Made by a program: the position numbers and the translations under genes. A model generated the notes under the pieces. It was not told the origin of the DNA. It searched no databases and saw only the letters and a program-made list of their open reading frames with translations. 64,000 nucleotides of DNA from Pezicula radicicola. Taxonomy: Eukaryota > Ascomycota > Leotiomycetes > Helotiales > Dermateaceae. Below, one piece after another: positions 7,616-50,053 of the stretch. The stretch is taken from positions 997,290 through 1,061,289 of the forward strand of contig PDUO01000015.1 in assembly GCA_003008705.1 (NCBI GenBank), written 5' to 3'. The stretch's first letter is position 1, and the number at the start of each line of letters is the position of its first letter.

Positions 7616-7770
7616 GGTGGTGTGGTGTAATGGTAGGTAAGTTATCAACCATCAAATTCCACTTCCATTGAATTTGTTCTAACAACATCGCAGCACGTGA
7701 CGTTGTGGTGATCCTCTCAGGATAATCATGCTGACCCGTTTCAATCTGGGTTCGATTCCCAGCACCGCCA
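7616..7770 (+). tRNA. tRNA-His(GTG) with a canonical 37/38 intron and an extra GT-AG insert in the D-arm
   Basis: The acceptor strands GGTGGTG (7616-7622) and CACCGCC (7763-7769) pair over 7 bp, followed by discriminator A at 7770. An A box TGGTGTAATGG (7623-7633) and B box GGTTCGATTCC (7749-7759) match Pol III consensus. The T-arm is CTGGG/CCCAG around TTCGATT. The D-arm closes as GTGT-AATGGTA-GCAC only if 7637-7693 is removed. That 57-nt insert begins GTAAGT, has CTAAC at 7679-7683 and ends CAG. The anticodon loop TTGTGGC (7703-7708 plus 7736) matches the tRNA-His loop of yeast and needs removal of a second, 27-nt intron (7709-7735) at the standard 37/38 position. The anticodon stem is then TGACG/CGTTT with one T-T mismatch and one G-T. 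The mature length is 71 nt, with canonical A14, G18 and G19. It could be a decaying copy, but every other helix is intact. Confidence 0.7.
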
Positions 7771-7820
7771 AGTAAAATTGGCATTGAAAATGCAAGTGGT
7801 TAGATCCCACTGTGTAATCC

Positions 7821-7827
7821 TTTTTTT
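7821..7827 (+). terminator. Pol III terminator (T7)
   Basis: A run of seven T lies 50 bp after the tRNA discriminator base and is the first run of more than four T downstream of the gene. This is a normal RNA polymerase III stop signal, although the 3' trailer would be long. Confidence 0.55.
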
Positions 7828-45861: not shown

Positions 45862-48010
45862 GGTGCAGGCGAGAGTAGTGGTATTGAAGGTGTTAGGAGA
45901 GATGAGGGATGTAGAAAGAAGGATGTTTAAGGCCATCTTATATGTTTATTATTTTTGCCTCCTAGGTAGACTTGTCACCAGAGTTGCGATCCACAATTCA
46001 CACCCACCACCAGTAGTGAGTGGCTCAAGAGTATGGCCGAAGGTCGCCGTTGCTATTTCTTACAAGCCTATGAGTAGGTGCATCAGAAAGTTACAATCTC
46101 CGTTGTGACTGCATGGGAGGGACAAAGAGACAGCCGTATAGGGCAGTCCGTCCGTCTAAACTTTGGAAGCTTTGCTGCAAGGTACAGAAGGGAAGGAGGG
46201 ATTGAGTACTGTACGCCCCCCGGCGCAGCGTGCCCTTTTGTGTGCAAGTGCTAGAATGTCAAGGGCGGGAGTTGTGTCGCAAACGGTAGCCCAGTCCCGA
46301 ATGAAAGCTGGTGAAGCCTGTGAAATGGAACCATTGTCGGCACTGCATGCTGGGGCTGGCTCGGTTAGGAATGGCGGGGTTATGCGGGGTCAGGGCTTCC
46401 AGACTTTCTTCCACCAGAGCTACTGTACCCATATCATCTTGCAGATATACTGGCCCTATTACTGCAACGGATGCAACGGAGGAAATTTCAATGTGTGTCT
46501 CCTATCGGTCCGTCCCTCCTCAGTACTCGAGGCAACCAGTACTTCCTCGAGTGATGTAACATCTGTTTTCACCAGCTAGCCATGCTCCATCTAGACTCAC
46601 TAGACCGAGGTTTGAAGCCCAGGAACATTCAACCTAACTACCTACTGTACAGCACCACATAGTTTTTATCCATGTGAAGGAGGGGTTGCTCCTGTTTTAA
46701 CCATACTTCCCAGCTTGTTTTCTCTCGAAAACCAAGTGAAAAGCCTGATGCAGGACTAAAGTTCCACCGAGAATCACGCCGTTTATTACTCTAACTGATG
46801 CTTTTGCAATCTTCAACGCTTCTCCTGATCTTACAGAACACGTGTATCCCCATAGACTAATCTAGGGAATCCTTGTATGTCATCTGAACATGTGCAGTAG
46901 ATGCCGCTTCTACTTTTACAATGGCGCAAATCACGTCATGTCAAAATGCAGGTAGTATATTGTGACACGACTGGGAACATCTTGCTGATTGCTGATGTAC
47001 ATCAGTACACAAAGATGATATCGAAATAGAATATACGGGGGAGTGGCATCACCATTGAGAGCCTTGAATGGAGGGCATCGTGCTCTTCACCTGTGTAGTG
47101 CAACCGCCAGCCTTGAGCATGCCTACTTCTCAGCGACAGATAGCATAACTGGAAATGCAATCCATGAAACTCCAGGGTTGCTTGTGGTCATTATGCTGAG
47201 TATGACGGAGAACAGTGGAGCTGACAGTCCGCCCAAGAAAACAAACACACAGGCATATCACATCGGTCCGGCTTTCGAAAATATTAAATGATATTCAAAG
47301 TGTACATGGAATCAGAAGCTTATGGCTGGCAGGATCCATGCCATTACCATGGTACTAACCACGGCTGCATGTTACCACATCCATGAAGTCTCCCATCCCT
47401 TCTCCCATCTGTGTGCTCGTATGTCCCCATGTATGTCTTCGCAATCGATCTCCTCCCCGACGGTCATGCCCGCGATAGTGCCGTCGAAAATTTGCAATTG
47501 GCCTCGAATAGCCCCCCCCCCACCCCAAACTGTAAAACGTGGATGTAGACAGCCATGGCGGTATCTCGGAAAACCTCATTAGCCAACGGCCAGTAGGTCA
47601 AGAGTTGGAATATGGCGCCTTCAGTGCACTCCTCCACCGAGCTCAGCCTTTGACAGCGAGCTCAGGTTTCGGAACTGATTCGTCTTAGATCTGTCGATAG
47701 GATAACACCACATTTTACCTGTAGAGGCTGATGGCTCCATATGGGATCGAGCTGCTCAACACTCAACCTCACAACGAAGCCGCAAGCGGCAGTTGGAGGG
47801 AGCGTTGGGCACAAATCTGTGTTTGTAGAAGAGAAGGAAAAGAAAAGGCTGAGCGCAAAATAAATCTTTTAAGCCGCGATATTCGCTTAATGGGCGCTAG
47901 TCGCGGCTAGTGTTAGCGTTCTTTCCGCGCAGTTTGACCATATTGAGCCTCAACGCCACGACGACTTTTCACCTCAAAGCAGTCGACTGTATTTCGATAA
48001 GTATTACAAC
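45862..48010. other. Long divergent intergenic region
   Basis: About 2.1 kb between the divergent glucoamylase and Snu66 genes. Scattered short frames (for example 46163-46579 and 47043-47291) have no supporting features. A C-tract lies near 47512-47525. Glucoamylase regulation (AmyR/CreA) may act here, but I did not find an unambiguous site. Confidence 0.45.
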
Positions 48011-50053
48011 ATGACAGACGCAATCTCAATCGAAGAGACCAACCGCATGCGCGCGGCTCTGGGCTTAAAACCTCTACCGGTCCCAGGCGCGAGCGGTCCA
48101 GTCTTCAAAGAAGCACCAACCGGCCCCCCAGAAGAAGTAGCCAGCACGATCGAAACACGAGAAGCTGAGAGTTATGGCAACTATCGAAAGGCTCAAGAAG
48201 CGGAAGAGGCGAAGAAGAAGCGTGAAGCAAGAGCTACGGCCACGAGAAAGGCTATCGATGCTGCAAAACGCTTTGCAAAGCTCGAAGGCCAGGGACTTGG
48301 AGCTGCCGACGATGATGAGGACCTAGATGCCCGTGAGTGGCTGAAGAAACAAAAGAAGAGACAAAGGGATATTGAGAAGGCACGAAAGCTAGAAGAGGAA
48401 CTGGCAGACGCCGAGGCGGCTGCCGAGTATACTGCGAAAGACCTAGCTGGTGTTAAGGTCGGCCATGAGTTTGATACATTTGAGGAAGGAGAGGAGCAGG
48501 TTCTAACGCTGAAGGATACAACCATTGATGAGAATGAGGAGGAAGGTGATGAGCTTGAAAACTTGAACCTGCGCGAAAAAGAGAAATTAGCGGAGAAGCT
48601 AGAACTGAAGAAGAAAAAGCCAGTATACAATCCCAACGACGCTGAAGAGGGAGGCGCCATATTAGCACACTACGATGAAGATATAGAAGGCAAGAAAGGC
48701 GCGCGATTCACACTTGATGGCAAGGGGAGCACAACAGAGGCTAGTCTGGCGGTAGATGGAATTAAGCCAAAGCCCAAGGCTATCGCCTTCAGCCTTGATA
48801 TTCTAAGTGAGCGTTTCCTCTCCCTTGCGATTTCGAAAAATTTTATGCAAGGACTAACTTATTGTCCAGATGATGTACCTAAATCCGATTACTACGATCT
48901 CTCAGAGATCAAAGTGAAGAAGCCCAAGAAAAAAAAGGCAAAATCCACCCGTCAGAAAGCAGTTGATGAGGATGACATATTTCCAGTAGTTGAAGCTGCG
49001 GCTCCTGAAGAAACAGCTGGAGCAATGGATGTCGATCAACCAGCCGAGCCTACTAAAAAGCGAACCTTTAACGACATGTCCTTTGTCGATGATGATGATC
49101 TCCAGGCTTCTCTAGCGGCGCAGCGGAGGAACGCATTAAAGAAACGCCAGAAGCTCCGGCCAGAAGAGCTTGCCCAGAGATTGCGGGAAGAAGCATCAGC
49201 TACACCGGCTGCCGAAAACGAAACAGAGGAAGAAGAATCAGGTCTTGTCATTGATGAGACCTCTGAGTTCGTATCAAACTTGCAGAAGCCGTCGGCTCCG
49301 GAACGCAAAGCGAGATCAGCTTCGCGACCGACGGAAGGAGTCACAGCTATGGGTGCGGACTCCGATGATGAGGGCGATGTCAATATGGACCGATCATATG
49401 CCAATGTTGAAGATGAAGAAGACCTCAAAGCCAGACTTGAGCGCCAGGAGTCTGCCGAGGTCGACATAACTAATAATGGTTTGGAGGAGGAGGCCACTTT
49501 AGACCGAGGTCTTGGCTCCACTCTGAAGTTGTTGAAGGAGCGAGGCATCATACAGAAAGATGATTCTACTGATAAAAACGAGATATTTAGAAGGAAACAG
49601 CTATTCCTTGCTGAGAAACAACGTCGCGAAGCCGAAGCAGAACGAAAGGCCCGTATGCAGAGAGAGCGGGATCGCGCAACAGGGCGTCTTGACCGAATGT
49701 CTGCTCGTGAGAAGGAAGAATATGCCCGGTCACAGAACACGTATCGGGACCAGCAAGAATCTCGCCAACTTGCCGAGCACTTTAATAAAGACTACAAACC
49801 AAATGTCGAGCTTAAGTACATCGACGAGCATGGCCGAAGCATGAACCAAAAAGAAGCCTTCAAGCATCTTTCGCATCAGTTCCACGGTAAAGGAAGCGGG
49901 AAACAGAAGACCGAGAAGATGCTGAAGAAGATCGAGGACGAAAAGCGCAGGGAAGCTCAGAGTTCTCTCGATGGGAGCCAAATGGGTGGCATGTCTAGTG
50001 CAACGGCGCAACAACTGAAGAAGCAAAAGCAGGCCGGTGTGCGACTGGCTTAA
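48011..50053 (+). CDS. SNU66: SART-1/Snu66 family tri-snRNP protein
   Basis: Exons 48011-48806 and 48870-50053 give 659 aa. The start MTDAISIEETNRMRAALGLK is characteristic: Snu66/SART1 begins with a SIEETNKIRxxLGLKPL motif that contacts the U4/U6.U5 tri-snRNP. A long charged helical region follows (EAKKKREARATATRKA; KQKKRQRDIEKARKLEE), with VGHEFDTFEEGEEQVLTLKD (the conserved DLAGVKVGH motif). The C-terminus carries DRGLGSTLKLLKERGI and DEHGRSMNQKEAFKHLSHQF, both highly conserved in the family. The 63-nt intron (GTGAGC to CCAG, CTAAC branch) is a multiple of three and free of stops. The protein functions in pre-mRNA splicing in the nucleus. Its start lies about 2.1 kb from the divergent glucoamylase start. 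Confidence 0.93.
   Translation: MTDAISIEETNRMRAALGLKPLPVPGASGPVFKEAPTGPPEEVASTIETREAESYGNYRKAQEAEEAKKKREARATATRKAIDAAKRFAKLEGQGLGAADDDEDLDAREWLKKQKKRQRDIEKARKLEEELADAEAAAEYTAKDLAGVKVGHEFDTFEEGEEQVLTLKDTTIDENEEEGDELENLNLREKEKLAEKLELKKKKPVYNPNDAEEGGAILAHYDEDIEGKKGARFTLDGKGSTTEASLAVDGIKPKPKAIAFSLDILSERFLSLAISKNFMQGLTYCPDDVPKSDYYDLSEIKVKKPKKKKAKSTRQKAVDEDDIFPVVEAAAPEETAGAMDVDQPAEPTKKRTFNDMSFVDDDDLQASLAAQRRNALKKRQKLRPEELAQRLREEASATPAAENETEEEESGLVIDETSEFVSNLQKPSAPERKARSASRPTEGVTAMGADSDDEGDVNMDRSYANVEDEEDLKARLERQESAEVDITNNGLEEEATLDRGLGSTLKLLKERGIIQKDDSTDKNEIFRRKQLFLAEKQRREAEAERKARMQRERDRATGRLDRMSAREKEEYARSQNTYRDQQESRQLAEHFNKDYKPNVELKYIDEHGRSMNQKEAFKHLSHQFHGKGSGKQKTEKMLKKIEDEKRREAQSSLDGSQMGGMSSATAQQLKKQKQAGVRLA

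Follow-up and report, generated by a model that had tools for sequence, protein, structure and literature searches.

A tRNA-His(GTG) gene of Pezicula radicicola with a GT-AG intron in the D-arm beside a 37/38 intron, and related tRNA genes with putative spliceosomal introns

The tRNA-His(GTG) gene at positions 7616 to 7770 of the window, the whole stretch of 64,000 nucleotides of Pezicula radicicola DNA that was analyzed, is split by an intron in the D-arm as well as by one at position 37/38, and this organization is confirmed. Judging from sequence, it is very probably a working nuclear gene and one of a small set, made up of three of the four tRNA-His(GTG) genes and both tRNA-Val(TAC) genes found, in which a U2-type spliceosomal intron would lie outside the anticodon loop in addition to a normal 37/38 intron.

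The window gene consists of three exons, amounting to 71 nt once joined, and two intervening segments, all on the plus strand. Exon 1 (7616 to 7636, 21 nt) runs to tRNA position 22 and contains the 5' strand of the acceptor stem, the 5' strand of the D-stem and the D-loop; it is unchanged in all four tRNA-His genes. The spliceosomal-type intron (7637 to 7693, 57 nt) sits at 22/23 and has the form GTAAGT...CTAAC...CAG, the branch-point-like CTAAC lying at 7679 to 7683 with its branch A 11 nt upstream of the intron end. Exon 2 (7694 to 7708) covers positions 23 to 37, including the anticodon GTG, and is followed by a 27-nt 37/38 intron of the ordinary tRNA kind (7709 to 7735). Exon 3 (7736 to 7770) extends from position 38 through the discriminator A73. 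These exon and intron boundaries, together with the splice motifs, had been proposed in a first-pass annotation of the window, and all were found in place.

That annotation also held that a 71-nt tRNA-His assembles only after two removals. ARAGORN agreed, since without its intron option it gave a 71-nt tRNA-His(gtg) only once both segments had been removed. On the unspliced gene the program called nothing without introns allowed and a tRNA-Glu(ctc) with introns allowed. Deletion of the D-arm segment with introns allowed yielded tRNA-His(gtg) with a 27-nt intron, and the same single deletion was sufficient under the intron option in all three interrupted tRNA-His genes. Deleting the 37/38 intron alone was not sufficient in any of the three, even with the intron option, and gave nothing for the window gene. 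The Rfam tRNA model scored 32.9 bits against 7616 to 7770 (gathering score, 29), with two large inserts, one in the D-arm and one in the anticodon loop; the gene was missed in whole-window runs of ARAGORN and of Rfam at the gathering threshold.

The D-arm intron had further been described as having exactly the form and length of the mRNA introns of the window. The comparison with 11 ab initio candidate mRNA introns, a set made without a protein check, bore out a similar form and not an exact match: the candidates measure 47 to 94 nt (median, 62), with the branch A at a median of 13 nt from the 3' end, but only 1 of the 11 starts with GTAAGT and 3 of the 11 end in AAG.

We then searched the genome (61,044,626 bases on 152 contigs) with the whole gene as a query and found four tRNA-His loci. 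Three of them carry the D-arm intron, namely, the window copy on C47 (57 nt), C3:1246612-1246767 (58 nt) and C98:1082009-1082175 (64 nt), while the gene at C14:268090-268187 lacks it and retains the 37/38 intron. The count of other tRNA-His(GTG) genes, which the first-pass annotation had suggested as a check, thus came to three, one of them without the D-arm intron. In the C14 gene TGGTAG is joined directly to CACGTG, which makes it an exact empty site. The four genes agree at every one of the 71 exon bases, compared as three exon strings. The D-arm introns differ pairwise at 19/57, 20/57 and 20/58 aligned positions versus 0/71 exon positions for each pair (Fisher p 3e-8, 1e-8 and 1e-8, respectively), and the 37/38 introns of the three interrupted genes show 2, 4 and 5 differences per 27 aligned positions. 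Past the trailer, the His loci can be aligned only with many gaps (71-81% of aligned columns). A chance origin of the D-arm insert is excluded, because the C14 gene provides the exact empty site and the other copies keep the splice motifs despite their diverged interiors. We also observed that each of the three D-arm introns begins with the same 13 bases, GTAAGTTATCAAC (7637 to 7649 in the window gene); this identity runs past the splice-site consensus, as TATCAAC after GTAAGT is also common to all three.

A second interrupted family was found for tRNA-Val(TAC). The gene at C113:28764-28916 has a 26-nt 37/38 intron and a 54-nt GTAAGT intron at 47/48, in the variable loop; the gene at C3:1002804-1002960 has a 25-nt 37/38 intron and a 59-nt GTAAGT intron at the same site. 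The 47/48 introns start with GTAAGT and end with TAG or CAG. The two genes show no difference among their 73 exon bases, and the 47/48 introns differ at 8/51 positions of a gapped alignment (p 6e-4). After removal of both introns ARAGORN returned tRNA-Val(tac), and with introns allowed and only the GT-AG intron removed it returned tRNA-Val(tac) with an anticodon-loop intron. An uninterrupted tRNA-Val(TAC) copy was not found in the 61-Mb genome, where the spliced-sequence query matched only the first exon of the two known genes. Both Val(TAC) genes found are therefore interrupted, and an exact empty site is known for His only. A pattern consisting of GTAAGT, 25 to 55 bases, YAG, 0 to 25 bases and a B box matched only the two Val genes genome-wide (the reversed-pattern control gave 1 match). 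Since one His gene is free of the D-arm intron, His decoding need not depend on removal of that intron, and the strongest case for a need for splicing thus rests on Val(TAC). The absence of another Val(TAC) gene presumes a complete assembly and a search that missed no diverged copy.

The interrupted genes might instead be tRNA pseudogenes hit by an intron, with the C14 gene making all tRNA-His. The existence of that intact gene fits this account, and so does the supposition, in an excerpt of a 2014 review, that where a eukaryote has many synonymous tRNA genes, an unusual insertion in one of them indicates a pseudogene (PMC4090602). However, the exons are identical in all copies found although the introns have diverged, the splice signals are retained in all five introns, the A box, the B box and the terminator are all intact, and no uninterrupted Val(TAC) gene was found in the genome. 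The pseudogene reading, which we judge quite improbable, was set aside because identical exons and preserved splice signals are not expected of dead copies. The first-pass annotation had named several intact tRNA-His genes elsewhere, or a decayed insert, as marks of a pseudogene; a single intact gene was found, and the insert is non-decayed in three genes. It had also weighed processing by the spliceosome against a tRNA copy hit by an insertion. The arrangement recurs in three His genes that have diverged and in both Val(TAC) genes found, with identical exons and preserved splice signals, and spliceosomal processing is now much the better supported of the two.

The five introns outside the anticodon loop (called ectopic here) share their signals. 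All five start with GTAAGT, end with CAG or TAG, measure 54 to 64 nt and contain a branch motif [CT]TAA[CT] with the branch A 11 to 13 nt from the intron end. The motif is CTAAC or CTAAT in four of them and TTAAT, a weaker branch motif, in the Val gene on C3; the three D-arm introns have CTAAC or CTAAT, the branch A 11 to 12 nt from the end and a terminal CAG. The features of U2-type introns, i.e., GT-AG ends, a 5' site near GTAAGT and a branch near CTRAY, are thus present in 5/5, and for His the uninterrupted homologue on C14 defines the exact boundaries. Canonical introns cut by the Sen endonuclease lie at 37/38, whereas the ectopic introns occupy 22/23 (His) or 47/48 (Val) in genes that have separate 37/38 introns. 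A cloverleaf with the correct anticodon was obtained with ARAGORN without the intron option in all five interrupted genes only after both introns had been removed. Both spliced tRNAs (His and Val) contain a T27-T43 mismatch, and their minimum free energy folds are not cloverleaves, whereas ARAGORN gives a cloverleaf; such non-cloverleaf folds are often obtained for tRNA that lacks its modifications.

Ectopic tRNA introns of the archaeal or red-algal type, cut by the tRNA endonuclease at a bulge-helix-bulge (BHB), had to be considered as well. Passages of the 2014 review place archaeal tRNA introns at 22/23 and 45/46 among other sites and mention noncanonical ones in Cyanidioschyzon and nucleomorphs (PMC4090602). 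At the ectopic junctions, however, the central helix of a BHB was absent in 5/5 introns (0 to 1 of 4 pairs, all three registers having been tried at the His junctions), in a test whose positive control was weak (at 37/38, 3 of 4 pairs for His and 1 to 2 of 4 for Val). Moreover, the features that are conserved, GT-AG ends and branch motifs, are needless for BHB cutting. The tRNA endonuclease is thus unlikely as the agent for the ectopic introns, because the central helix is missing in all five, the 37/38 control being only partly positive, and BHB cutting of the archaeal or red-algal type is accordingly given very little probability as an explanation.

We next turn to the transcription signals, for which the A and B boxes were assigned by their consensus sequences. 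In the window gene the A box TGGTGTAATGG (7623 to 7633) is undisturbed by the D-arm intron and the B box GGTTCGATTCC lies at 7749 to 7759, so that 115 nt separate the end of the former from the start of the latter, compared to 58 nt in the C14 gene, which lacks the D-arm intron. Both boxes are intact in all five interrupted genes, with the ectopic intron between them and a spacing of 113 to 127 nt. The first run of four or more T residues past the start of the window gene is a T7 terminator at 7821 to 7827. The boxes and the T7 stop had been noted in the first-pass annotation and are all present; as a refinement, a hairpin precedes the T7 run, which begins 50 nt downstream of the last tRNA base. 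None of the five genes contains a run of four or more T residues; a T5 to T7 run follows 7 to 13 nt past the Val genes and 50 to 56 nt past the His genes. A box, B box, T-run terminator and a cloverleaf with the expected anticodon, which characterize nuclear tRNA genes, are therefore found in 5/5. The absence of TTTT from the five introns was matched by 0.17 of shuffles and is not significant alone; the value was 0.048 when two introns of a U6 locus (see below) were added.

The hairpin of the trailer (7786 to 7819) is common to the four tRNA-His loci; it has the loop UUAGAUC and is located just ahead of the T-run downstream of all four genes. Used as a genome query, the window trailer matched three of the four His loci and nothing else, and its decamer GGTTAGATCC occurs in no other locus among those compared. 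The hairpin fits all four sequences, with 43/43 cells paired, a value that is not above the shuffle control (79/500), and its changes among loci comprise one compensatory pair and four one-sided ones. The hairpin of the window trailer alone did not fold better than shuffles (z 0.34). By eye, it resembles a T-arm.

A U6 match was found at C3:394362-394523 on the minus strand (49.2 bits), with an insert of about 57 nt within the conserved core. We read this locus as containing two GT-AG introns, the boundaries of which were placed by eye: one of 63 nt after the 5' stem (GTGAGT...CTAAT...TAG), the first exon being outside the Rfam match, and one of 53 nt in the core (GTGGGT...TTAAC...TAG). Rfam aligned the 5' stem differently from this reading. 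With both introns removed, 82 of 102 aligned positions equal the Rfam consensus and the core is unbroken. The 63-nt intron holds the A-box-like TGGTCTAGTGG, which suggests a promoter element carried by the intron. A second U6-like gene (C146:17702-17803, 76.9 bits) is diverged and intronless, has a TATA-like element upstream and may be a variant, a pseudogene or foreign DNA.

The U6 locus bears on the possibility that the spliceosome removes the tRNA introns from Pol II read-through transcripts and not from Pol III precursors. Spliceosomes normally act on Pol II transcripts, which fits this possibility. Against it, the internal Pol III boxes are intact, a T-run stop is present, runs of four or more T residues are absent inside 5/5 genes, and a locus of U6, which Pol III usually transcribes, seems to contain introns of a similar kind in this genome. 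We therefore consider a Pol II origin of the spliced transcripts unlikely and favor Pol III precursors.

No intron was seen in 47/47 scored 5S copies (of 2522 candidates), all of which are 120 nt long, and none was seen in the SRP RNA, whose match of 283 nt on a 293-position model leaves no large insert. Thus, most of the Pol III genes looked at are uninterrupted. SRP RNA introns were dropped as a precedent, as an extract of a Cryptococcus paper argues against introns there (PMC4605306). For RNase MRP RNA there was one match, at C1:1121031-1121509 (minus strand), which is 479 nt long although the model has 266 positions; the additional length may be an expansion or an intron. At C109:672923-673077 (minus strand) lies a tRNA-Gly(TCC)-like gene whose 37/38 site holds an 82-nt insert; with its complementary ends AAGTCGTTCTGA...TCAGAACGACTT, this insert is unlike the other 37/38 introns compared. 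Elsewhere in the window, a homologue of the Aspergillus fumigatus sRNA Afu_309 (126 bits) was found at 47541 to 47835 on the minus strand, next to a SNU66-like gene at 48011. For the RRP12 protein of the window, the named proteins that match best come from Phlyctema vagabunda (87% identity) and Coleophoma cylindrospora (86% identity), both members of the Helotiales.

A mobile, introner-like intron family that inserted recently into tRNA genes among many other sites was considered too. Introner-like families are known in fungi, and the ectopic introns are preceded by AG or GT, which fits this reading. However, whole-gene queries including the intron matched only the His loci or only the Val loci in 61 Mb, and neither query matched the other family, so that we hold such a recent insertion to be highly improbable. 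A mobile intron or SINE-like repeat was likewise rejected, since there were no further copies and only tRNA loci matched. In the scan with the intron-tRNA pattern, viral contigs gave no matches and prokaryote contigs gave two, in bacterial records, which were taken as chance. In the Rfam tRNA census, 63 of 2516 candidates were scored and 57 were given, including both Val(TAC) genes and none of the four His genes. Further interrupted tRNA genes may therefore exist.

We propose the following route for the interrupted genes. Pol III would transcribe them from the intact A and B boxes as far as the T-run. In the nucleus, GTAAGT, YTAAY and YAG would be recognized by the spliceosome, leading to removal of the intron from the D-arm or variable loop. 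This removal would let the cloverleaf fold, and the 37/38 intron would afterwards be excised by the Sen endonuclease and tRNA ligase. We infer that Pol III transcribes these genes, that the spliceosome takes out the ectopic introns and that the two steps follow this order; the spliceosome is placed first because Sen54 reportedly contacts the D-arm of the pre-tRNA, according to an excerpt of the 2014 review (PMC4090602), and because of the ARAGORN results. It is likely that in this fungal lineage part of the tRNA supply relies on two splicing systems that are unrelated and act in a set sequence: the spliceosome would first take the D-arm or variable-loop intron out of the Pol III precursor, which allows the tRNA to fold, and only then would the endonuclease cut at 37/38. 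As both tRNA-Val(UAC) genes found need removal of the GT-AG intron, this tRNA would depend on the spliceosome. The layout of the C14 His gene is that of a half-processed intermediate, with the spliceosomal step done and the Sen step not; the gene may represent either the ancestral state or the product of such an intermediate.

If this is true, a tRNA that needs the spliceosome unites both RNA-splicing systems in one molecule, the spliceosome acts on a Pol III product besides U6, and the genes offer a natural test of whether a Pol II transcript is required for splicing. The annotation of tRNA genes could overlook or misname such cases: with introns allowed, ARAGORN named four of the five unspliced genes Glu or SeC and did not call the fifth. 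In the open-licence PMC literature, among the matches listed, no earlier description of a tRNA gene with a spliceosomal intron was found. The finding would thus be a known kind of intron in a gene class for which these matches offer no report of it.

Nuclear tRNA genes of eukaryotes are otherwise described as having one intron at most, cut by the tRNA splicing endonuclease; an excerpt of a 2021 paper, based on a scan that included 432 fungal genomes, states this limit of one intron (PMC8450103). Like these canonical genes, each of the four His genes and two Val genes found has a 37/38 intron; unlike them, five have an extra intron elsewhere, with GT-AG and branch signals and without a BHB. For the extra tRNA introns of archaea, Cyanidioschyzon and nucleomorphs, passages of the 2014 review invoke BHB recognition or call the mechanism unknown (PMC4090602). 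The introns described here resemble those of archaea, Cyanidioschyzon merolae and nucleomorphs in lying outside the anticodon loop, sometimes alongside a 37/38 intron. They differ from those of archaea and C. merolae, for which the same passages describe BHB recognition by the tRNA endonuclease, in having spliceosomal signals and, by a weakly controlled test, no BHB.

Other structured RNAs offer parallels as well. Excerpts of the respective papers describe the U6 intron of fission yeast as spliced by the spliceosome and as thought to come from reverse splicing near catalytic nucleotides (PMC10484740), name U3 and U6, as of 2017, as the only structured small RNAs for which frequent interruption by an intron is known (PMC5832005), and report that spliceosomal introns are removed from rRNA made by Pol I, both in lichens and in engineered yeast (PMC8527467). 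These cases show that the spliceosome is not confined to mRNA. The lichen introns are likewise spliceosomal, one of them measures 57 bp, and they interrupt a structured RNA that is not made by Pol II (PMC8527467); there the host is a Pol I rRNA and here a tRNA. The present introns are also similar to those of fungal U3 snoRNA, spliceosomal introns within a structured small RNA, but here the RNA is a tRNA and a second splicing system is involved. Fungal U6 introns are reportedly the subject of Canzler et al. (2016). As in the U6 snRNA genes of Schizosaccharomyces pombe and other fungi, short spliceosomal introns would interrupt a gene transcribed by Pol III. U6, however, belongs as an snRNA to the spliceosome, whereas tRNAs are not parts of it and have a splicing enzyme of their own.
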